Shown: piece after piece, positions 2-47,443 of the stretch | How the letters are laid out: each line of letters opens with the position of its first letter | Numbering within the stretch: position 1 is the first letter of the stretch | NCBI GenBank assembly: GCA_013297865.1 | Contig: JAAFIP010000012.1 | Span: forward strand, 1-64,000 | Direction of reading: 5' to 3' | DNA from: Polaromonas sp. | GTDB taxonomy: Bacteria > Pseudomonadota > Gammaproteobacteria > Burkholderiales > Burkholderiaceae_C | Length of the DNA: 64,000 bases | The notes under the pieces: model-generated | What the model saw: only the letters and a program-made list of their open reading frames with translations | Databases searched by the model: none | What the model was told of the DNA's origin: nothing | Position numbers and translations under genes: made by a program

Positions 2-958
2 CGCATCGGCCAGGAAGTCATCGTCGACTTCTTGAACGGCGACCCCGACCGCCCCTTCATCATGGGCCGCGTCTACAACGACGACCAGCCCAAACCCTTT
101 GACAGCCACACCCAAAGCGGCTTCAGAACACGATCCACCCCCGAAGGCACGGCCGCCAACTGCAACGAATTTCGCTTTGATGACAAAAAAGGCGAAGAAC
201 AGGTCTACCTGCATGCCGAGAAAAACCAGGACCTGGAGGTAGAGAACGACGAAACCCACTGGGTCGGCCGCGACCGCAAAAAGACCATTGATCGCGACGA
301 AACCAACCACATCAAGCAAGACCGCACCGAAACCGTAGATCGCAACGAAAAGATCAACGTACACGGCTGGAGAACCGAAGAGGTTGACCTGGACGAGACC
401 ATCACCATCCACAAAAACCGCACCGAGCGGGTGGATCTGGATGAGAAGATCAGTATTGGCAAGAACCGAAGCGAAGATGTGGAGCTCAACGAGACCATCA
501 GCATCGGCAAGAACCGCACCGAGAGTGTGGGGGCTAATGAGACGATTGCTATTGCTAAGAACCGCAGCGTGACTATTGGCGGCAGCAAGACTGAGTCGGT
601 GAAGAAGACCAAGACGGAGACTATCGCCTTGGCCAAAGCCTTGAGCATTGGCTTGGGCTACCAAACTACGGTAGGCGCAGCAATGAACACCACGGTAGCA
701 GGATTTCAGGCTACGCAGGTAGGCCTGTACAAGAACATCCTGGTAGGCGGCAACTGGACCAACACCGTCAAATCATCATACAGCCTGGATGTGAGTAAAG
801 ACATTGTGATCGATGCAGGCAGCAGCATCACGCTGCGGGTTGGTAAGAGCGTCCTCGTTCTTAAAAAAGACGGTACTGTGACCCTTAATGGCAAAGACAT
901 TGATGTTGTCGGCTCCAAGCACATTGGTATGGAAGCCAAGCGTATCGACATGAATTGA
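2..958 (+). CDS. vgrG: VgrG, type VI secretion spike protein (5' end missing)
   Basis: This is the C-terminal part of a VgrG/Tssi spike protein; the reading frame is already open at the first bases of the window, so the start lies outside. The opening residues (RIGQEVIVDFLNGDPDRPFI, then a short MGRVYN motif) are the gp5-like OB-fold region of VgrG. After that comes a run of about six 16-residue repeats, roughly window positions 300-600, with the pattern x-K-N-R-[ST]-E-x-V-[DEG]-x-[ND]-E-[TK]-I-x-I. These fit the triple-stranded beta-helix needle. The needle would carry the PAAR-like tip encoded downstream and load the effector encoded after it. Family identity is clear. The effector partner is inferred from gene order. 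Confidence 0.93.
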   Translation, partial: RIGQEVIVDFLNGDPDRPFIMGRVYNDDQPKPFDSHTQSGFRTRSTPEGTAANCNEFRFDDKKGEEQVYLHAEKNQDLEVENDETHWVGRDRKKTIDRDETNHIKQDRTETVDRNEKINVHGWRTEEVDLDETITIHKNRTERVDLDEKISIGKNRSEDVELNETISIGKNRTESVGANETIAIAKNRSVTIGGSKTESVKKTKTETIALAKALSIGLGYQTTVGAAMNTTVAGFQATQVGLYKNILVGGNWTNTVKSSYSLDVSKDIVIDAGSSITLRVGKSVLVLKKDGTVTLNGKDIDVVGSKHIGMEAKRIDMN

Positions 959-7567: not shown

Positions 7568-8686
7568 GTGCAATCCATTATATCGACCCCCCCATCGCCA
7601 CAGCCCGGCCCTGCCATAGACCCCAGCGCAGAGTCAGAAGAGCTGTTCGAGCCCAGCGCGCTGGACCACGAGCTGCGCAGCTTCGAGCTGCCCGCCGCGC
7701 TGCACGGCCAGCGCCTGGACCGCGCCCTGGTGGAGCTGGTGCCGGAGTTTTCACGTAGCTATTTGCAACAATTAGCCGACGATGGAGCGGTGCTGCTCAA
7801 TGGCGCCGCCGTGCGCAAAAACGCCACCAAGCTGCGTGCTGGCGACCAGCTGCAGATCACCCTTCGACCCACGCCGCAAAGCCAGGCCTTTCGGCCCGAG
7901 GCGATGGACCTGGACATCGTGTTTGAAGACGCGCATTTGCTGATTGTGAACAAACGTGCTGGCGTGGTGGTGCACCCGGCAGCTGGCAACTGGAGCGGTA
8001 CGCTGCTCAATGGCCTGCTGGCCCACGACGCGCAGTGCGCCGAGCTGCCGCGCGCGGGCATTGTGCACCGGCTTGACAAAGACACCAGCGGTTTGATGGT
8101 GGTGGCGCGCACCAGGCTGTGCATGGACGCGCTGGTGGCCATGATCGCTGCGCGTGAGGTGAGCCGCCAGTACATCGCCATTGCCCACCGCGCATGGCCT
8201 GGCGAGGTGCAGCGCCGAGTAGATGCCGCCATCGGCCGCGACATCAAAAACCGCCTACGCATGGCAGTGGTAGACCTGCAGCGCAGCCCCGGCAAGGAGG
8301 CCATGACAGATTTCGAATTGCTATCAAATTCGAAGCTGCCCCCGCGATATTCTATTGGCATGGAGACCCAAAACACTATTGATAACACCTCCAAAACAGA
8401 CGATCAGAGCAATGTGGATGACCGCAGCTACTGCCTGCTGCGCTGCGTGCTGCACACTGGCCGCACCCACCAGATCCGCGTGCACGCCGCGCACATTGCC
8501 CATCCGCTGGTGGGCGACGCGGTGTATGGCGGGGCCAGCGCTGCAGGCCTTGCGCGCCAGGCCCTGCACGCCCAGCGCCTGGCTTTTGCCCACCCCATGA
8601 CAGGGGAAGACCTGGTGTTTACCGCCCCAATGCCCGCCGATTTGCTGCAGGCTTGCCAGGCGCTGGGCCTGCGCTACAATGGCTGA
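7568..8686 (+). CDS. rluD: 23S rRNA pseudouridine 1911/1915/1917 synthase RluD
   Basis: An RluA-family synthase that modifies helix 69 of 23S rRNA. An S4 RNA-binding domain covers about residues 45-105 ([20 protein letters not shown]). The catalytic motif is [10 protein letters not shown] with Asp170, and the C-terminal R-T-H-Q-I-R-V-H motif is intact. Start is GTG at 7568. Residues ~251-270 interrupt the normal fold with a peptide encoded by a reverse-oriented interspersed repeat (positions 8320-8375). It lies between the [10 protein letters not shown] strand and the [15 protein letters not shown] strand, probably as a surface loop, and the frame is kept. The gene is divergent from bamD, with scpB downstream. 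Confidence 0.93.
8320..8375 (-). repeat. Interspersed repeat, copy 2 (in frame inside rluD)
   Basis: Carries AGCTGCCCCCGCGATATTCT, then ATTGGCATGGAGACCCAAAA. Relative to the family it is in reverse orientation, and it translates as [17 protein letters not shown] within RluD without breaking the frame. Confidence 0.85.
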
Positions 8687-25494: not shown

Positions 25495-26667
25495 ATGTCC
25501 GCCTGGGTCCTCCCTGATCACATCGCCGATGTTTTGCCCTCAGAGGCCCGGCACATCGAAGAACTGCGCCGCGAACTGCTGGATACCGCGCGCAGCTACG
25601 GCTATGAGCTGGTCATGCCGCCCCAGCTGGAATACCTCGAATCCCTGCTGACGGGCACCGGCCAGGCGCTGGATTTGCAAACCTTCAAACTGGTCGACCA
25701 GCTCTCGGGCCGCACCATGGGCCTGCGTGCCGACACCACGCCCCAGGTGGCCCGTATTGATGCCCATCTGCTCAACCGCGAAGGTGTCACCCGCCTGTGC
25801 TATTGCGGCCCGGTGTTGCACACCGCCCCTGCCAAACCCCATGCCACCCGCGAGCCCTTGCAATTGGGCGCTGAGATGTATGGCCACGCTGGCGCAGAGG
25901 CTGACCTGGAGGTGCTGCTGCTGGCTATCGACTGCCTGCAGCGCGCTGGCGTGCAGCACATGACGGTGGACCTGGCCGATGCGCGCCTGGTGCGCAGCAT
26001 GCTCGCTGGCGTGATGGCTACACCCGAACAGCTGGAGCAGGTGCATGCGGCTTTAGCTGCTAAAGACGCCGCCGCCCTGGCCCATTTGACAGCCAGCTTC
26101 CCAGCGGCCAGCCGCGACGGCTTGGCCACGCTGGTGCAGCTGTATGGCGATGAAAAGGTGCTGGTTGAGGCAGAAAAAGCCTTCCAGGCCAATAAAACAT
26201 CGCGGGAGCAGCTATCAAATTTGAAGCAACTGGCCAGCCAGGTGAAGTCTGTGTACCCGCAGGTCAGCATCAGCTTTGACCTGGCCGACTCGCGCGGCTA
26301 CGCCTACTACACCGGCGTGCGCTTTGCGGTCTACTGCCCCGGCGCTACCGATGCGCTGGCGCGCGGCGGGCGCTATGACGAAGTCGGTTCCGTGTTTGGG
26401 CGTAACCGCCCGGCAGTGGGCTTCAGCCTGGATGTGAAAGAGCTGGTGGGCGTGGTGCCAGCACGTGCGCTGAAAGCTGCCATCCGCGCGCCCTGGCCAG
26501 AGCAGACGCCCCAGGGCGCCAGCTTGCGCGCCGCCGTGCACGCGCTGCGCGCACGCGGCGAGACGGTGGTGTGCGTGCTGCCCGGCCATGAACATGAAGT
26601 GCAGGAATTTACCTGTGACCGCGCGCTGGTAGAGGCGGCGGGGCAGTGGGTGGTGAAAGCGATTTAA
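25495..26667 (+). CDS. hisZ: ATP phosphoribosyltransferase regulatory subunit HisZ
   Basis: A catalytically inactive histidyl-tRNA synthetase paralogue that pairs with short-form HisG in the first step of histidine synthesis. It keeps the class II fold ([17 protein letters not shown], then [23 protein letters not shown] and [19 protein letters not shown]) but lacks the full synthetase tRNA-binding domain. Residues ~230-243 ([15 protein letters not shown]) are encoded by an interspersed repeat copy and lie in a helical region. hisG is not in this window. purA follows. Confidence 0.93.
26183..26224 (+). repeat. Interspersed repeat, copy 4 (in frame inside hisZ)
   Basis: TCCAGGCCAATAAAACATCG followed by CGGGAGCAGCTATCAAATTT. 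It is read in a different frame (T-S-R-E-Q-L) from the bamB, metC and phaZ copies (N-I-A-G-A-A-I). Confidence 0.85.
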
Positions 26668-28620: not shown

Positions 28621-28644
28621 TACTCAAATCTCCCTGAGGATGTC

Positions 28645-28668
28645 AAGGGCCGCTCACGCGGCCCTTTT
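28645..28668 (+). terminator. Rho-independent terminator
   Basis: A 9-bp perfect stem AAGGGCCGC / GCGGCCCTT with a TCAC loop, followed by TT and a short T-rich run, 25 bp after the phosphoribosyltransferase stop. It closes the hisZ-purA unit. Confidence 0.8.
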
Positions 28669-28711
28669 GCTTTGTGCCATGGTTTGCGCAAAAACTCGCT
28701 ACCATCTAGCC

Positions 28712-29959
28712 ATGACCGAGCCCATCACCCACCTGATCCACCATCCCTACCAGCCGCCTAACACCTTTGTCGCGCCACAAACCGGCGTGTACAAGGCGTC
28801 TACCGTTATCTTCCCCAACGTTGCTGCCATGCGCACGCGCGAGTGGAAAGACAAGTCGGGCTACACCTACGGACTGCACGGCACACCCACCACCTTCATT
28901 CTGGAAGAGCGCATCGCCGCGCTGGAAGGCGGCTTGCAGTGTGTGCTGGTGCCCAGCGGGCTGGCAGCTATTGCCAATGTAGACTTCGCGCTGCTGGCCA
29001 CAGGCGACGAGCTGTTGATCCCCGACAACGCCTACGGCCCTGGCAAAGTGCTGGCCGCAGGCGAGTTGGCGCAGTTCGGCATCAGCCACCGCTACTACGA
29101 CAGCATGGACGCAGCCGACCTGGCCGCCAAAATCACCCACAAAACCAAACTCGTCTGGCTCGAAGCCCCTGGCTCGGTCACCATGGAGTTTCCCGACCTG
29201 CTGGCCTTGGTCACCGTGTGCAAACAGCGCGGCGTGCTCTGCGCCATTGACAACACCTGGGGCGCAGGCCTCGCGTTCAATGCGTTTGACCTGGATGGCA
29301 AAGGCGCGGGCGTGGACATCAGCATCCAGGCACTGACCAAATACCCCAGCGGTGGTGGCGACGTGCTGATGGGCAGTGTGGTCACGCGCGACGCAGCCCT
29401 GGGCCTGAAAATCAAACTCACCCATATGCGCACGGGCGTGGGCGTAGCCGCCAACGACGCCGAGCTGGTGCTGCGCAACCTGCCCAGCATCGCGCTGCGC
29501 TACCAGGCCCACGACGCCGCGGCCCGCCAGCTGGCCGCCTGGCTGCACAAACGCCCCGAGGTAGAGACCGTGCTACACCCCGCGTTGCCCGGCTCCCCTG
29601 GCCATCAGCACTGGAAACAGCTGTGCGCCCAACAGAATATCGCGGGAGCAGCTATAAATAATGTAGCAAGCGAGATGGTTACCCATGGCAATGCCGCCGG
29701 CCTGTTCAGCATCGTTTTCAAAGAGCGCTACACCAGCGCGCAAGTAGACGCATTCTGTGACGCCCTCAAGCTCTTCAAGCTCGGCTACTCATGGGGCGGC
29801 CACCTGAGCCTGGTCGTGCCCTACGACATCCCCTCCATGCGCGACGCCACCGTAGCCCACTGGCCCTACCGCGGTACTTTGGTGCGCTTTAACATTGGTC
29901 TGGAAGATGTGCGCGACTTGCAGGCGGATATGGAGCAGGCGCTGGGCAAATTGGTTTGA
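28712..29959 (+). CDS. metC: Cystathionine beta-lyase-type PLP enzyme
   Basis: A Cys/Met-metabolism PLP enzyme of the MetC type (cystathionine to homocysteine, pyruvate and ammonia). Motifs include YTYGLHGTPTT near the N-terminus, V-L-V-P-S-G-L-A-A-I, the cofactor Asp in C-A-I-D-N-T-W and the Schiff-base region S-I-Q-A-L-T-K210-Y-P-S-G-G. The start is placed at 28712 where homology begins. Near residue 308 an interspersed repeat encodes [14 protein letters not shown]. Everything from that point to the stop is repeated at 32008-32339, so the 3' end may have been exchanged. Confidence 0.88.
   Translation: MTEPITHLIHHPYQPPNTFVAPQTGVYKASTVIFPNVAAMRTREWKDKSGYTYGLHGTPTTFILEERIAALEGGLQCVLVPSGLAAIANVDFALLATGDELLIPDNAYGPGKVLAAGELAQFGISHRYYDSMDAADLAAKITHKTKLVWLEAPGSVTMEFPDLLALVTVCKQRGVLCAIDNTWGAGLAFNAFDLDGKGAGVDISIQALTKYPSGGGDVLMGSVVTRDAALGLKIKLTHMRTGVGVAANDAELVLRNLPSIALRYQAHDAAARQLAAWLHKRPEVETVLHPALPGSPGHQHWKQLCAQQNIAGAAINNVASEMVTHGNAAGLFSIVFKERYTSAQVDAFCDALKLFKLGYSWGGHLSLVVPYDIPSMRDATVAHWPYRGTLVRFNIGLEDVRDLQADMEQALGKLV
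29631..29666 (+). repeat. Interspersed repeat, copy 5 (inside metC)
   Basis: AACAGAATATCGCGGGAGCA then GCTATAAATAATGTAG. It marks the left limit of the segment shared with the partial metC copy at 32008. Confidence 0.85.
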
Positions 29960-30035
29960 TACGCGATCTGGCTTGACCAATTCGACCCAACACAGCTTGG
30001 CAGCTTGAGCCTTAAGGGGAGTGAACCGAACGACG

Positions 30036-30091
30036 GAGCCATTGCGGATAACGGCTTGCCATGCGTTACTTAGCCGTTCCGACAATGGCTC
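30036..30091. repeat. Long imperfect stem-loop behind metC
   Basis: GAGCCATTG/CAATGGCTC (9 bp), CGGA/TCCG (4 bp) and ACGGC/GCCGT (5 bp) pair in nested order, with a TA bulge on one side and a single A on the other, around a 17-nt loop. It lies 20 bp before the first gene of the small membrane-protein cluster. It could be a terminator-like or recombination structure; it lacks a T-run and the GTTRRRY box expected of an integron attC site. Confidence 0.6.
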
Positions 30092-30111
30092 ATTAAAAAG
30101 AAAGGCTATCA

Positions 30112-30363
30112 ATGAACATTAAAGATTTGGCACTCTACATCATCGTTCTGATGGGCATACAGATGCTGCTTGTAGCGATCATTACCCGCATGAATAAAGA
30201 ATTTTTTGATGACGAAAACGCATTGAAGTACTTTATTGCCTTACGACGGTTTTGGGCCGCGAAACCTACATCGGCAGCAATAATTATGTTTTGCTATGCA
30301 GCTTGTTTCATTGAGCTATTTATTGTCTTTTGGGTCGCGTCAAGCCAGAGCGCAGTGCGTTAG
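30112..30363 (+). CDS. Small two-helix membrane protein, unknown function
   Basis: An 83-residue protein with membrane helices near residues 5-25 (LALYIIVLMGIQMLLVAII) and 55-77 (AAIIMFCYAACFIELFIVFWV), separated by a charged loop with NKEFFDDENALKYF. AAAGAAAGG lies upstream of the ATG. It is the first of five small, low-G+C genes placed between two copies of the metC 3' end. No family is recognised. Confidence 0.6.
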   Translation: MNIKDLALYIIVLMGIQMLLVAIITRMNKEFFDDENALKYFIALRRFWAAKPTSAAIIMFCYAACFIELFIVFWVASSQSAVR

Positions 30364-30397
30364 GTTTAATAAAAGTATTCTTTACGAAGAGACGAAA

Positions 30398-30625
30398 ATG
30401 GACAACAAAGATAAAGGTAATGCCGGTATTGGCATAGGAATGTGTTGCCTAGTTCTAGGCATCACCCAAGTCGCCTATCCCTCAGCAAGTCGTCCAACAG
30501 GACGATGGTCTTTCGTGCTTGGTCCGCTGTTTGATGCTTTTGGTTTGATAGGCCCAGCTATGCTCCCTATCATTTTTGGCATCTCACTCGTATTTTTTGG
30601 CTTTTTGCTCAGAAACAGAAAATGA
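30398..30625 (+). CDS. Small membrane protein, unknown function
   Basis: A 75-residue protein with a Gly-rich first helix (GNAGIGIGMCCLVLGITQV) and a second helix near the C-terminus (MLPIIFGISLVFFGFLL). The ATG at 30398 is chosen because GAAGAGACG precedes it. Its stop overlaps the next start (ATGA), so the two are translationally coupled. No family recognised. Confidence 0.6.
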   Translation: MDNKDKGNAGIGIGMCCLVLGITQVAYPSASRPTGRWSFVLGPLFDAFGLIGPAMLPIIFGISLVFFGFLLRNRK

Positions 30626-30876
30626 GCTTTGACGTGATGGTGTATGCATTAATTTTCTGGTTGTTGTTAATTGTTTTTGCTTTTGGCCTTGAAGTTATTC
30701 TTCTGATGGGTTACTCAAACTACGAAGACATGATGCAAAGCAAAGATCAGTTGTTGAATAGTTCAAACTCCTTCGATCGAGTAACTGCAAAGGTGCTTTA
30801 TGCACTGGTTGAATATCGACTACTCATTGGCTACTTGGGTATTGTGGGTCTGATGCTTTCATTGGCCATGAGTTAA
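30622..30876 (+). CDS. Small membrane protein, unknown function
   Basis: An 84-residue protein with helices at about residues 6-30 (VYALIFWLLLIVFAFGLEVI) and 65-83 (LIGYLGIVGLMLSLAM) around a polar loop with SNYEDMMQSKDQLLN. The start overlaps the previous stop by 4 bp. Low G+C like its neighbours. No family recognised. Confidence 0.6.
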   Translation: MSFDVMVYALIFWLLLIVFAFGLEVILLMGYSNYEDMMQSKDQLLNSSNSFDRVTAKVLYALVEYRLLIGYLGIVGLMLSLAMS

Positions 30877-30941
30877 GGTGTGATTTTATGAATGCGTCTG
30901 ATTGGGTGATGCTTTCAAAAAAATCACTTTAATTTTATGGG

Positions 30942-31169
30942 ATGCACCGTATGACAATTGTAATTTTGAGTCTCGCTGGCATCTCATTTGCTGCAGCACT
31001 GGTATGCCTCGTCTTCATACTAAGTAGGCATGGTATTTGGAGTTTTCATGAGATCCCCAAGCTCGCAAAAGAAGGTGATCGCTTCGCAAAAGCGTATCTT
31101 TGGTTCGTTTATATGGCGTTCGGGTTGGGTTTGTTCTTGTCTTTATCCTCACTCGTCTTAAGGAAATGA
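30942..31169 (+). CDS. Small membrane protein, unknown function
   Basis: A 75-residue protein with two hydrophobic helices (IVILSLAGISFAAALVCLVF and FVYMAFGLGLFLSLSSLVL) separated by a loop with GIWSFHEIPKLAKEGDRF. ATG codons at 30942 and 30951 are both possible. No family recognised. It belongs to the same cluster of five. Confidence 0.55.
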   Translation: MHRMTIVILSLAGISFAAALVCLVFILSRHGIWSFHEIPKLAKEGDRFAKAYLWFVYMAFGLGLFLSLSSLVLRK

Positions 31170-31214
31170 CATGACTATCTCCCCAGAATGCGTCAGTGGT
31201 AAAAGCAGAAAATA

Positions 31215-31694
31215 ATGAATCGCGTTTTTCATGAAAAACTCAGTTGGCTGGTTGTCACAGTTTTGGTGCTGCTCTTAGTTTTTTATTCTGCCAGTCAGTC
31301 TCATTTGCCTATTGCAACTAAACTTTTGTCACTAAAAACCGTAAAAGAAAATTCACTCACTGTGTCTAGTGCGTTAGAGCTACCAGATGGAGCATATATC
31401 TGTGTATTGGGCCCTTACACCAGGAGAATTGACGCAGAGGGCATTTACTCAAATGAGATAAACGCTCTTTTAAGCACAGGTGAGTTTCTCGGCGATGAAG
31501 GGCATTGGACGTTTGTTTATGGTCAATCAGGAAAATGGAAGGCTGAAAAAATTCAGCGTCGAATAGTTGATCTTGATGATTTCAAGTCCGTCAATGCCAA
31601 AAAATTTAATTCGGTTTGCGGCTACGCAAACAGCATACAAATCAGCAAACCTTCCAAAGACAAAGTACTCGTTGAATTGAAGGAGAAAAAATGA
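31215..31694 (+). CDS. Exported or membrane-anchored protein, unknown function
   Basis: A 159-residue protein with one N-terminal hydrophobic helix (LSWLVVTVLVLLLVFYSA) and a soluble remainder containing LPDGAYICVLGPYTRRIDAE and a C-terminal Lys-rich end. It should be anchored in the inner membrane with the domain outside. No family recognised. It is the last gene of the low-G+C cluster; a 44-codon open frame starts at its stop codon (31691-31825) but has no recognisable content. Confidence 0.6.
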   Translation: MNRVFHEKLSWLVVTVLVLLLVFYSASQSHLPIATKLLSLKTVKENSLTVSSALELPDGAYICVLGPYTRRIDAEGIYSNEINALLSTGEFLGDEGHWTFVYGQSGKWKAEKIQRRIVDLDDFKSVNAKKFNSVCGYANSIQISKPSKDKVLVELKEKK

Positions 31695-31870
31695 TTTTTT
31701 CCAATTTCAACTTTTCGAGAGTAAGCGCGATGGCTACGTTTACCCCGCCGGCAGCATGGCAAACCACTTTTCCAACAAGCTGTGCCGGTTCGTTGCAGCC
31801 AGTGTTGGCGGCTAACTGGGTCTAGCGTTCAGTCTGTTGGATCAAAAGGTGCGGGCACTTATCTGCTTCT

Positions 31871-32005
31871 CGCTCGCGCCTTTTGTAGCGCCGCTTTGAT
31901 AAACCCACGCTTTTTATCTGGCACGGCGGGGTCGGTGATGCAGTTGTAGGCGGGCACGTTAGTGAGATTTTTCTGTAGTGTTTTGATGGCTTTTAGCCTT
32001 TTTCA
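31871..32005 (-). pseudogene. Fragment related to the rnfB 3' end (antisense)
   Basis: This stretch aligns over about 130 bp with 44955-45100, the C-terminal part of the RnfB gene in the same orientation. Shared blocks include GATAAACCCACG, GGCACGGCGGGGTCGGTGATG (against CAGCACGGCGGGGTCGGTGAT) and GATGGCTTTTAGCCTTTTT (against GATGGCTTTTGGCCTTTTT). Stops and frameshifts prevent translation. It ends at the repeat copy at 32008, where metC-derived sequence begins. Confidence 0.8.
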
Positions 32006-32007
32006 CC

Positions 32008-32044
32008 AACAGAATATCGCGGGAGCAGCTATTAATAATGTAGC
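32008..32044 (+). repeat. Interspersed repeat, copy 6 (chimera junction)
   Basis: AACAGAATATCGCGGGAGCA then GCTATTAATAATG. Left of it lies rnfB-like sequence, right of it metC-like sequence. Confidence 0.85.
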
Positions 32045-32336
32045 AAGTGAGATGGTTTCACACGGCCGGGCCGCTGGCCTGTTCAGCATCGTTTTCAAGG
32101 AACGCTACACCAGCGCGCAAGTAGACGCATTCTGCGATGCCCTCAAGCTCTTCAAGCTCGGCTACTCATGGGGCGGCCACCTCAGCCTGGTCGTGCCCTA
32201 CGACATCCCCTCCATGCGCGATGCCACCGTAGCCCACTGGCCCTACCGCGGCACTTTGGTGCGCTTTAACATTGGTCTGGAAGATGTGCGCGACCTGCAG
32301 GCGGATATGGAGCAGGCGCTGGGCGCACTCAGATAG
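32011..32336 (+). pseudogene. Duplicate of the metC 3' end
   Basis: About 325 bp nearly identical to 29633-29959, encoding the last ~107 residues of the cystathionine beta-lyase (from N-I-A-G-A-A-I-N-N-V-A-S to the stop). Differences are mostly third-position, so this copy evolved as coding sequence and was not merely decaying after a local duplication. An open frame begins upstream at 31962 but has no start region of its own, so no functional enzyme can be made. Confidence 0.88.
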
Positions 32337-32341
32337 TCAGC

Positions 32342-33709
32342 TCAAAGCCACAGAGCCTTCATAGCGCTGGTGAATTGCCTTTGGTGTTGGGCGGTATTGA
32401 CGACCTGATATTTACCAGCCACCACCACAGAGCGCACGGCTGCGCCAGGGCTGGAGAACACCATGGCGTCCAGGTATCTTTTGGGAGCTATGCCTGCCAG
32501 TGAAGGGGCATCTGCAGCGAGCATGCACAGGTCTGCGCGTTGACCTGCTGCAATTCCTGCTAGTGGCACTCCGCTAGCGGCTACTGCGCTGTGTATGGGG
32601 CCTTGTAACAGTGCTGCTGCGCTACTGTCTGTGCCAGACGCGCGCGCTGCCACGTTGCGTTGGCGCAGCGTGAGGCGTTGGGAGTATTCGAGCAGTTGCA
32701 GCTCTTGCAGGGCGTGGCGCGTAACATGGCTGTCGGAGCCGATGGACCAGCGCCCGCCCAGCCTAGCCCAGGCCTGAAAATCAAACACGCCATCACCGAG
32801 ATTGGCCTCGGTGCTGGGGCAGATCACTATGGCCGCGCCTGTCGCCTGCAGGCTGTGCAGTTCGCTGGGTGTGGCATGGGTAGCGTGCACCAGGTTCCAA
32901 TGCGGGTCCACCTGGGCTTGGCCCAGCAGCCATTCAATCGGTCGCTGGTCATGGTGGGCGATGCAGTCATTGACCTCTTGCAGTTGTTCGCTGATGTGCA
33001 GATGCACGGGCCAACCGCCGTGCTGGCTGGCCTGCGCCACTTCGGCCAGCGCACCAGCATCGACGGCGCGCAACGAATGCAAAGCAACCCCCGCGTTGAC
33101 CTGCGGCAGCCCCAGCGCGTTGATGGCCTGCGTAATGCGCAAAACGCTTGAAGGCGTGCTGGCAAAGCGGCGCTGGTCATCGCCTAGGCCCGCTGCACCA
33201 AAGCCCGAGCGCATATACAGCGCGGGCAACAGGGTCAGCCCGATGCCTGCGGTCTGCGCTGCGCGAACCAGCGCCATGGACAGCTCCATCGCATCGGCAT
33301 AAGGCTTGCCGTGCTCGTCGTTATGCAGGTAATGAAACTCGCAGACCTGTGTGTAGCCGCCCGCTAGCAGCTCGGTATAGAGCTGCGTTGCGATAGCCTC
33401 TAGTTGATCGGGTGTGATGCGCAGTGCCACGCTGTACATGCGATGGCGCCAGCTCCAGAAATCGTCGTCTTGGCCCGCACTGTGCTCGGTCAGGCCTGCG
33501 ATCGCACGCTGAAACGCATGGCTATGTGCATTGACAAGGCCAGGCAGCACCAGGCCTTGCAGAACGGTTGTTTCCTGATGGTCTTTGCCCGCAGTTACCC
33601 CGGGCTTGACTGACTTCCAGTAGCCATCAGCAGCCACCAGCTGCACGTCATAAGCCCAAGCATCCGCAACCCAGGCCTGGTGTGCAAAAAATATTTTCTC
33701 AGTAGCCAT
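32342..33709 (-). CDS. hutF: Formimidoylglutamate deiminase
   Basis: Hydrolyses N-formimino-L-glutamate to N-formyl-L-glutamate and ammonia in the five-step histidine pathway. An amidohydrolase-type metal site is visible: G-L-V-N-A-H-S-H-A-F-Q-R near residue 65, H in C-E-F-H-Y-L-H, H in H-L-H-I-S-E-Q and D in S-I-G-S-D-S-H. The ATG at 33709 (MATEKIFF) is preferred. It overlaps hutG by 11 bp and is the last gene of the leftward hut operon. Presence of HutF plus HutG defines the formylglutamate branch. Confidence 0.95.
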   Translation of the reverse strand: MATEKIFFAHQAWVADAWAYDVQLVAADGYWKSVKPGVTAGKDHQETTVLQGLVLPGLVNAHSHAFQRAIAGLTEHSAGQDDDFWSWRHRMYSVALRITPDQLEAIATQLYTELLAGGYTQVCEFHYLHNDEHGKPYADAMELSMALVRAAQTAGIGLTLLPALYMRSGFGAAGLGDDQRRFASTPSSVLRITQAINALGLPQVNAGVALHSLRAVDAGALAEVAQASQHGGWPVHLHISEQLQEVNDCIAHHDQRPIEWLLGQAQVDPHWNLVHATHATPSELHSLQATGAAIVICPSTEANLGDGVFDFQAWARLGGRWSIGSDSHVTRHALQELQLLEYSQRLTLRQRNVAARASGTDSSAAALLQGPIHSAVAASGVPLAGIAAGQRADLCMLAADAPSLAGIAPKRYLDAMVFSSPGAAVRSVVVAGKYQVVNTAQHQRQFTSAMKALWL

Positions 33710-34502
33710 ACATCGCCTTGGTTGCATCAAGCCCAGCGCTTACCATGGCCTTGAGCAGCGGCTCCACCCGTGTAGCCTTGACCTCATCATAGGCAAAAGG
33801 TGCTGATTCCTGCATATACAGGCTCTGGCACATCTCCAGCTGCAGTGCATGCACATGGTGCCCGACTGGCTGACCATAGTGGCGTGTGATGTAGCCGCCT
33901 TTGAAGCGCCCATTGACTATACTGCTGACGCTTGCAGCAGACTGGCACGCCGCGGCCACCGCTGCAGTGATCGCAGGGTTTGCCGCTGCGCCGTTGGCTG
34001 TGCCAATGTTTAGGTCTGGTAGCTTGCCCTCAAACAGCCAGGGGATGTGGCTGCGGATGCTGTGTGCATCCCATAACAGCACAAAGCCGTGGCGGGCTTT
34101 GATGCGCGCCAGCTCAGCGTCCAGCGCATCATGGTAGGGCTGCCAGTAGCTGGCGCGTCGGCGCAGTTTTTCGCTGTTGTCAGGCTCAGCGCCTGGCAGA
34201 TACAGCGGATCGCCAGTGAAAAAACGCGTAGGGCACAGCTCGGTGTTGGAAGCGCCTGGATACATGGGCGCATCGTCAGGCGGGCGGTTCAGATCAATCA
34301 CATAGCGCGACACCTGCGCTACCAGCATGCTTGCACCCATCTGCTGTGCAAAACCGTATAGGCGCTGCAGATGCCAGTCGGTGTCTTCCACCGCCAGTGC
34401 GCGTGATGTGTACTGGGGTTTCAGATCGTCGGGAATGTGCGTTCCCACATGCGGCATGCTTACCAGCAAGGGCAGGGTGCCGTGGTGCAGTTCAAAACTC
34501 AT
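33699..34502 (-). CDS. hutG: N-formylglutamate deformylase
   Basis: Releases formate from N-formyl-L-glutamate, the last step to glutamate. The family pattern is present: [15 protein letters not shown] at the N-terminus, DLNRPPD, and [10 protein letters not shown] in the middle. The ATG at 34502 overlaps the hutI stop (ATGA). The length of 267 is normal. Confidence 0.95.
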
Positions 34503-44941: not shown

Positions 44942-45649
44942 CTAGTTGCCAGCAGCGCTCTTATCGCGGGCTTTCTTCAACGCAGCTTCGATAAACCCAC
45001 GTTTTTTGTCCAGCACGGCGGGGTCGGTGATGCGGCTGTGGGCGGGCAGGTCGGTGAGCTTGTCCTGCAGTGTTTTTTGATGGCTTTTGGCCTTTTTGCC
45101 CAATAGAATGTCGCGGCGATAGCTATGATTTTCGTAGCGATCCAGGGCTAACTGCGCGTCTGCTTCAGTCCATGCCTGCCAGCCTGTGCGCCCTGGTGTG
45201 GTGATCTCAATCTCGATGCAGTCTACCGGGCAGGCGGGGATGCACAGCTCGCAGCCGGTGCACTGGCTTTCGATGACAGTGTGCATGTGTTTGTTGCTGC
45301 CGATGATGGCGTCTACCGGGCAGGCCTTGATGCATAGGGTGCAGCCGATGCACCAGTCTTCGTCAATGAAGGCGACCGTGCGCTCCTGCTCGCTGCCGAA
45401 AGCGGGGTTGATGGCGCTGCCACTGCTGGGCAGGGCCTGGCCGGTGAGGGCGGCCAGGCGCAGCAAGCCTTCGCCGCCGCCGGGGGGGCACTGGTTGATG
45501 GGCGCGGCCTCGTGGGCGATGGCGTGGGCGTAGCCTGCGCAGTCAGGGTAGCCACAGCGCTGGCACTGCGTCTGCGGCAGGGCGGCGTGGATGCGCAGGG
45601 CCTGGGGGCTGAGCGCTTTAACCGAAGTAGCCTGCGGCGTGTGGGTCAT
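44942..45649 (-). CDS. rnfB: RnfB-like ferredoxin
   Basis: A 235-residue iron-sulfur protein of the RnfB subunit type. The N-terminal Fe-S domain has [10 protein letters not shown], and two 4Fe-4S ferredoxin motifs follow ([12 protein letters not shown] and [12 protein letters not shown]). No membrane anchor and no other rnf genes are nearby, as usual in Burkholderiales, where it acts as a soluble electron carrier. The segment [14 protein letters not shown] overlaps a diverged interspersed repeat (45099-45138), and part of the 3' end recurs at 31871. Confidence 0.88.
45099..45138 (+). repeat. Interspersed repeat, copy 7 (diverged, inside rnfB)
   Basis: CCAATAGAATGTCGCGGCGA then TAGCTATGATTTTCGTAG. 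The family resemblance is clear at CCAATAGAAT-TCGCG-TAGCTAT, but the middle is altered. Confidence 0.6.
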
Positions 45650-45686: not shown

Positions 45687-47192
45687 TTATGCTGCGCGCT
45701 TGGCGGGTTTGCGTTGCGCAGCCACGGGCTTGCCTGCGGCGGGCTTGCGCTTTGCGCTCTTGCTGGCAGCGGACTTGGTGACCGCAGGTTTGCTCACCAC
45801 AGGCTTTGCAGTGCGACGCACAGCAGCTTTTGCAACAGGCTTGCTCGCTATATTTTTAATAGCTGCTCCCGCGATATTCTGTTGGGCTGCAGGCCTTTTT
45901 GTTGATGAAACAGGGCTTGCAGGCAAGGCTTTGTGTGCTTTGGCGATGAAATCACGCACAGCAGGGTAGACCACGTCGCGCCAGCGGCTGCCGCTGAAGA
46001 TGCCGTAGTGGCCTGCGCCTTTGGCTTCCAGGTGCTGGTGTTTGGCAGCAGGGATGCCGGTGCACAGGCCGTGGGCGGCTTCGGTCTGGCCGCTGCCGCT
46101 GATGTCGTCCAGCTCGCCTTCAACGGTCAGCACGGCGGTGGTAGTAATGTCTTGCGGGCGCACGCGCTCCAGGTTGCCATCGACCGATTTGACATCCCAG
46201 CTGCCATTGACCAGCTTGAAATCCTGAAACACTACGTCGATGGTGTCCAGGTAGTAGTCGGCGTCCATGTCGAGCACGGCGTTGTACTCGTCATAAAACT
46301 TGCGGTGCGCTTCGGTGCTGCGGTTGTCGCCCTTGATCAGGTCTTTGAAATAGTCGTAGTGGCTCTTGGCATGGCGGTCGGGGTTCATCGCCACAAAGCC
46401 GGTGTGCTGCAAAAAGCCAGGGTAGACGCGGCGGCCCGCGCCCGGAAAGCTTTGTGGCACGCGGTAGATCACGTTGTTTTCAAACCAGCTGTGGCTGCGC
46501 TGGGTGGCCAGGTTGTTGACAGCGGTGGGCGACTTGCGCGCATCGATGGGGCCGCCCATCATAGTCATGGACAGCGGCGTGGCCTCGCCCCGGCTGGCCA
46601 TCAGGCTGACCGCGGCTAGCACCGGCACCGTGGGCTGGCAGACGCTGACTACGTGGCAGTTGCCATAGCTGGCCTGCAGATGGCGGATGAACTCCTGCAC
46701 GTAGTTGACATAGTCGTCCAGGTGGAAAGCGCCTTCGGCCAGAGGCACCAGACGGGCGTTTTTCCAGTCGGTGATAAACACCTTGTGGTCGCCCAGCATG
46801 GAGCGCACGGTGTCGCGCAGCAGGGTGGCATAGTGGCCCGACAGAGGCGCCACGATCAGCACTGCAGGCTGGCCTTTGAGGCTGGAGAGCGTGGCCACAT
46901 CGTCGGTAAATCGCTTGAAGCGGCGCAGCTCACAAAACGGCTTGTCGATCTCGATACGCTCGTGGATGGCTACGTCCGTGGTGCCCACCTTGACGGTGCG
47001 GATGCCGAAGACCGGTTTTTCATAGTCCTTGCCCAGGCGGTACATCAGGTCATAGCTGGCCGAGATGCGCTGGGCAAAGGGCACCTGGCCAAAAGCGTTG
47101 AGCGGGTTGTTGAACAGCTTGCTGGCTGCCTGGGCAAACTCAGCAAAAGGCTCCATCAGGGAGCGTTGGGTTTCATAAACTTGGTAGAGCAT
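45687..47192 (-). CDS. phaZ: Intracellular polyhydroxyalkanoate depolymerase with basic tail
   Basis: An alpha/beta-hydrolase of the intracellular PHB depolymerase family ([16 protein letters not shown] near the N-terminus, lipase-box-like V-C185-Q-P-T-V-P-V-L, W-x-x-A-R-x-V-P, and a C-terminal H-G-L-C-T-G-I-P and G-H-Y-G-I-F-S-G). It mobilises stored PHA granules. The ATG at 47192 is used. After residue ~435 the enzyme core ends and a ~65-residue Lys/Ala/Pro-rich tail begins, whose first part ([14 protein letters not shown]) is encoded by a repeat copy. The tail resembles histone-H1/PhaF-like basic sequences (inference). Confidence 0.9.
45850..45895 (-). repeat. Interspersed repeat, copy 8 (in frame inside phaZ)
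   Basis: ATATTTTTAATAGCTGCTCC then CGCGATATTCTGTTGGGCTG and CAGGCC. Read on the gene strand as N-I-A-G-A-A-I, the same frame as in bamB and metC. Confidence 0.88.
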
Positions 47193-47443
47193 GCGTAGCC
47201 TTGTGTCTGCGGGTGGGCAGTGGTGAAATGAAACGGCAACGGGACTGCTTATGTTGCATTGCACCATTGTACGGACTACTCAGGGTTTTGGGGTATAAAA
47301 ATGGCATATCCCGTTCAGGGATTTCACTAAAATAGACTGCAGGCTCTAGCTTGGCGTGTGGCACAGCGCAATACAGGTGCCAAAAACGCACATCTGCACC
47401 AAGATAGGCGTGCTTTGCACATTGCAAGGTATATTACGCAGCA

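Follow-up and report, generated by a model that had tools for sequence, protein, structure and literature searches.

A repeat-edged rnfB-metC recombination scar

In the 64,000-nucleotide stretch of DNA analysed here (the window), a decayed copy of the 3′ end of rnfB is joined, inside a copy of a short dispersed repeat, to the 3′ end of metC. We conclude that this joined sequence has no function and is a scar of recombination, edged by repeats, that took at least two steps to form. The genome contains several such scars: repeat-edged gene scraps recur in it, often beside low-GC cargo. The material was a draft assembly of 27 contigs (3.99 Mb; contamination estimate, 0.04%). The features of the locus, the two intact parent genes and the neighbouring gene are as follows.

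28640..29959, + strand: metC, intact cystathionine beta-lyase gene, parent 1 (Pfam PF01053, E 2e-82)
29618..29671, + strand: repeat copy, right part only, in frame inside metC (nhmmer, 45.6 bits)
29960..31870, no strand assigned: low-GC cargo whose small ORFs belong to no known family (GC 43% versus 59%)
31871..32005, − strand: rnfB 3′-end scrap with a 2-base gap and a broken frame (83% to 44981-45116)
31981..32049, + strand: chimeric repeat copy at the joint, left half rnfB-like and right half metC-like (nhmmer, 48.8 bits; base-by-base alignment)
32006..32336, + strand: metC 3′ scrap, including its own stop codon, adjoining hutF (94.7% to 29629-29947; 12/14 codon differences silent)
32342..33730, − strand: hutF, formimidoylglutamate deiminase, resident neighbour (NCBIfam TIGR02022, E 1.7e-147)
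44942..45649, − strand: rnfB, intact, parent 2 (TIGR01944, over cut-off)
45075..45143, + strand: full-length decayed repeat copy in the rnfB coding region (nhmmer, E 1.8e-6)

To delimit the two pieces, we used BLAST together with global and base-by-base alignments. BLAST matched 31889-32022 to 44981-45116 of rnfB (83% identity, E 4e-35) and 32006-32324 to 29629-29947 of metC (94.7% identity, E 3e-143), and global alignment placed the left edge of the rnfB similarity at about 31870, with a 2-base gap inside. Overall, the part at 31871-32005 is ~82-83% identical to the rnfB 3′ end and its frame is broken by the gap. These results bear out the initial annotation, which had described an rnfB-metC chimera with a decayed copy of the rnfB 3′ end as its left part. 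The annotation had also let metC begin at 32011; the identity of this piece holds, but it begins at 32006, and in the base-by-base alignment the parent changes between 32005 and 32010 (‘CCAAC’, where C is the metC base and T the rnfB base). A profile of the repeat family (nhmmer) found one copy each over the joint, in metC and in rnfB. As had been proposed, the switch of parent lies inside the repeat, with a matching repeat site in both parents. The rnfB similarity stops at the repeat, with none beyond it, and a genome search for a third locus carrying both parts found none, returning only the locus itself, the two parents and isolated copies of the repeat. We rejected the idea of a functional fusion protein, because stops interrupt the rnfB part and the first two thirds of the enzyme, counted from the N-terminus, are missing from the 124-residue ORF.

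Of the parents, rnfB was present in 60 of 61 genomes searched. The best NCBIfam models for the metC product are those of cystathionine beta-lyase, with scores under their cut-offs. The repeat copy in metC encodes 14 residues that, in alignments, are absent from most relatives and from solved cystathionine beta-lyases. At the protein level, the metC scrap ends in ALGALR, the intact gene in ALGKLV and a relative (L001) in ALGKALR, which suggests that the end of the scrap may be the original one beside hutF, as it is nearer to that of L001 than the end of the intact gene is. Adjoining metC and hutF genes were found at none of 87 loci of other genomes, and an empty site was not observed among them.

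Unequal divergence of the two pieces and the low-GC cargo

We compared each piece with its parent. Mismatches amounted to 25/131 (19%) in the rnfB scrap and 17/319 (5%) in the metC scrap (P = 2e-5), and the difference was seen both at codon positions 1 and 2 (11/87 versus 4/212; P = 3.5e-4) and at codon position 3 (14/44 versus 13/106; P = 0.009). Had a single-step exchange between resident metC and rnfB simply been succeeded by unconstrained decay, the halves would be equally diverged, which they are not. Among the altered metC codons, 12 of 14 carry silent changes, and more than half of the metC differences (9 of 17) fall within the 70 bases nearest the joint, out of 319 (P = 0.005). The metC piece would look younger if it had undergone gene conversion with the nearby metC or exchange with another strain, and the crowding of differences at the joint is what partial conversion could leave.

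Between metC and the rnfB scrap lies 1.9 kb of cargo with ORFs at 30112-30363, 30296-30625, 30622-30876, 30942-31169 and 31215-31694. None of these ORFs had a Pfam or NCBIfam match over cut-off; the 159-residue ORF gave one weak family hit. Relatives of the cargo DNA were not found in 400 family genomes, plasmids or phages, and a plasmid or phage source was set aside, as there was no match in either. Since the cargo has a GC content of 43% versus 59%, foreign DNA also appears to have been involved at this locus. Altogether, the unequal divergence, the 12/14 silent metC codons and the intervening cargo call for at least one later step.

A high-copy repeat that also lodges in genes

The repeat core, AAYAGAAYATCGCGGGAGCAGCTAT, occurs in 571 copies at ≤3 mismatches in the 3.99-Mb genome, with 0 control matches. 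The full unit is ~70 bp long (TTTTATA..GTTTTAGGCCTCCAGGCCAATAGAATATCGCGGGAGCAGCTATTAAATTnATAGCA) and has an AT-rich consensus. Its plus strand folds better than shuffled sequences (z = −2.8) and its minus strand does not; the hairpin columns are too conserved to inform on covariation. Rfam gave no match for the repeat in the window. The exact core is nearly restricted to the source genome, being matched in 5 of 151 searched genomes, with a single copy in each of the other four. The right-hand part, GCAGCTATnAAAnnnnTAGC, is abundant in numerous genera of the family (matches in 28 of 61 genomes, with up to 391 copies outside the source genome), and in some family genomes it is accompanied by left parts related to the left part of the repeat. 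In the source genome (G000), a repeated family of 200-740 bp starts directly at a short-repeat copy in at least four places (C1:198623, C8:40510, C21:90936 and C2:2266).

Copies were classed as in-gene by an open-frame plus codon-bias test. By this measure, 92 of 370 sampled copies are gene-internal and in frame, versus 905 of 1500 random 70-mers; that is, the repeat lies in genes ~2.4-fold less often than random sequence, yet is far from excluded. About a quarter of the sampled copies appear to sit in frame within genes, including the core genes uvrD, purL, truB and metC. Compared with solved homologues, UvrD has a clean 17-residue insertion, PurL is longer at two sites (+4 and about +13 residues), TruB by 4 residues and MetC by about 20, and the alignment of RnfB with its relatives reveals no net length change. 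The net insertion thus varies among proteins, as RnfB has none though its repeat is recognisable. In these conserved genes, the copies are in frame and absent from homologues, a trait of protein-coding palindromic elements of the Rickettsia type. In-gene copies more often have CAACAG or CAATGG in place of CAATAG; this replacement of TAG is suggestive, being partly built into the open-frame test. A pattern search of other family genomes found in-frame copies at 3 of 20 loci sampled.

Several individual copies were also recorded. The two in-frame copies of purL (C1:158011-162213), at 159016 and 161371, are in different reading frames. In the window, the C-terminal region of the PHA depolymerase gene phaZ (45687-47267, − strand) contains a repeat at 45843-45912 that has the same frame as the metC copy and encodes 16 residues, and further copies at 26170-26233 and 8313-8383, classed as in-gene, are in frame in other reading frames than that of metC. 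In other family genomes, related in-frame repeats occur in what by appearance are a caspase-like protein (L258), an outer-membrane efflux protein (L259) and an EamA-like transporter (L271). Separately, window positions 324-563 hold four in-frame 48-bp tandem units (NRTExVDLDETISIGK) that resemble a VgrG-type repeat region.

Duplication edges coincide with repeats across the genome

To look for further repeat-to-repeat joins, as the initial annotation had advised, we masked the repeats in 2.04 Mb (~51% of the genome, sampled in stretches) and searched this DNA against itself. We counted a case when both copies of a homologous segment stopped at a repeat and the repeats were consistently oriented. 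This yielded 16 repeat-edged duplications, compared to a mean of 0.045 and a maximum of 1 in 200 random repeat placements, so duplication edges fall at repeats far beyond chance. Several of the 16 edges belong to two larger repeat families, which leaves about five independent loci:

metC (window)
rnfB (window)
C1:70447 and 74208: 5′ end of an rmuC-like gene, 3.8 kb apart; the DNA between is mostly 44-61% GC versus ~65% in the gene
C1:362594 and 363318: C-terminal scrap of a small gene, 0.7 kb apart
C6:32957 and 34364: inverted pair around DNA of ~42-50% GC

The clearest of these duplications also flank lower-GC DNA.

Origin of the scar

The initial annotation had held that the simplest account was recombination between repeats at two loci ~13 kb apart or in a donor genome. 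Recombination at repeat copies is well supported, since 16 duplication edges lie at repeats in both copies versus 0.045 expected; a single simple step does not stand, given 25/131 versus 17/319 mismatches. The rnfB and metC repeats are in direct orientation 15.5 kb apart, and by rough estimate a random partner would be so near on that side in ~0.4% of cases in 3.99 Mb. Moreover, the order rnfB-left/metC-right is that of the novel joint expected of unequal crossover between direct copies. On the grounds of this proximity, orientation and order, a local origin is favoured, whether the event took place in the source lineage or in a donor whose genes were ordered alike.

From the directly observed joint, repeat copies, divergence mismatch, cargo and genome-wide link between duplication edges and repeats, we infer an order of events and a type of crossover. 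An unequal exchange between the direct repeats in metC and rnfB would have produced the joint of rnfB 3′ end, repeat and metC 3′ end, much as in a tandem duplication. The first duplicate would later have been mostly lost or swapped for low-GC foreign cargo, giving the layout metC, cargo, rnfB scrap, repeat, metC 3′ scrap, hutF. After that, decay would have affected the rnfB scrap; the metC scrap may have stayed similar or been refreshed, either through gene conversion templated by the intact metC, which lies 2.4 kb away, or through homologous exchange with a different strain. We assign a probability of roughly 0.5 to this history of an old local unequal exchange, later loss or replacement of the duplicate and refreshment of the metC piece. 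Two points weigh against it: nearly all of the ~13-15 kb duplicate must be lost, and the repeat copies are near-identical over only ~17-20 bases at the crossover, which is short for RecA. No intermediate or close relative lacking the insert was present among the searched genomes, which include no other genome of the genus.

The mostly silent 5% divergence of metC, the older rnfB scrap and the low-GC cargo would also be accounted for if related-strain DNA bearing the metC end, the cargo and a decayed rnfB scrap ending in a repeat had entered by transformation. One crossover would have taken place in metC and the other between the donor repeat and the resident metC repeat, so that the metC end became duplicated around the cargo. 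The similar layout at the rmuC-like gene, a ComEC-family gene in the genome and the documented precedent of homology-assisted illegitimate integration (PMC2884548) fit such an event. However, it leaves the choice of rnfB, a gene 13-15 kb away, unexplained unless the donor had the same gene order, and no donor was found among 400 family genomes, plasmids and phages; we regard this route as possible but doubtful.

The differing divergence of the halves would fit independent events, in which illegitimate joining brought a metC fragment next to an old relic of rnfB and the repeat at the joint is incidental. However, in both parental repeats the matching position is only a few bases from the joint, and duplication edges lie at repeats far above chance, which makes this explanation unlikely. 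As for an assembly misjoin at the repeat, a draft in 27 contigs and a repeat with hundreds of copies would invite one; nonetheless, the repeat is only ~70 bp long, the halves are 19% and 5% off their parents and are thus distinct sequences rather than misplaced parental reads, and contamination is estimated at 0.04%. A misjoin is therefore highly improbable. Compared with these alternatives, the old local unequal exchange remains our preferred reading.

Comparison with known systems

The process behind the scar is ordinary genome plasticity, and the gene-dwelling repeat is the part worth following. We tentatively propose, at somewhat short of even odds, that a short repeat found throughout the Comamonadaceae has, much as the RPEs did in Rickettsia, entered many core protein genes of the source genome in frame, and that these gene-internal copies anchor recombination that swaps gene ends and admits foreign cargo. 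A high-copy repeat is here tolerated in core protein genes of a 4-Mb betaproteobacterium, something for which Rickettsia and Wolbachia provide the best-documented examples. The scar also connects repeats of this kind with foreign DNA flanked by duplicated gene ends. This makes it practicable to study the way in which a short repeat enters a gene in frame, the tolerance of proteins for it and its possible steering of gene acquisition.

As in repeat-mediated unequal exchange and homology-assisted illegitimate integration (PMC2884548), duplicated gene ends surround foreign cargo and the joint lies at a short shared sequence; the difference is that one anchor here is a specific high-copy repeat family also found inside genes. 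Like REP sequences and their RAYT transposases (PMC2817692, PMC3733652), the genome combines hundreds of short hairpin-forming repeats with one Y1 transposase gene. This single Y1_Tnp gene (C12:185248) has a repeat ~650 bp away on just one side. In addition, roughly one in four copies of the repeat is in a gene, whereas REPs are extragenic. The BRE (PMC3110155) is a short dispersed repeat of betaproteobacteria including Comamonadaceae, with some copies within coding sequences, as is the case here. It is described as GC-rich (69% in Bordetella), ~90 bp long, often tandem and present in at most 29 copies, whereas our repeat is AT-rich, ~70 bp long, dispersed and present in hundreds of copies; BRE is a possible relative despite differing in GC content, copy number and arrangement. 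In its gene-dwelling habit, the repeat has its nearest parallels in the RPEs of Rickettsia, which it resembles, together with the WPEs of Wolbachia (PMC3767692), in being a high-copy short repeat in frame in pre-existing genes that are left unbroken. It differs from them in length (~70 bp versus 100-150 bp) and in its Comamonadaceae-type genome.
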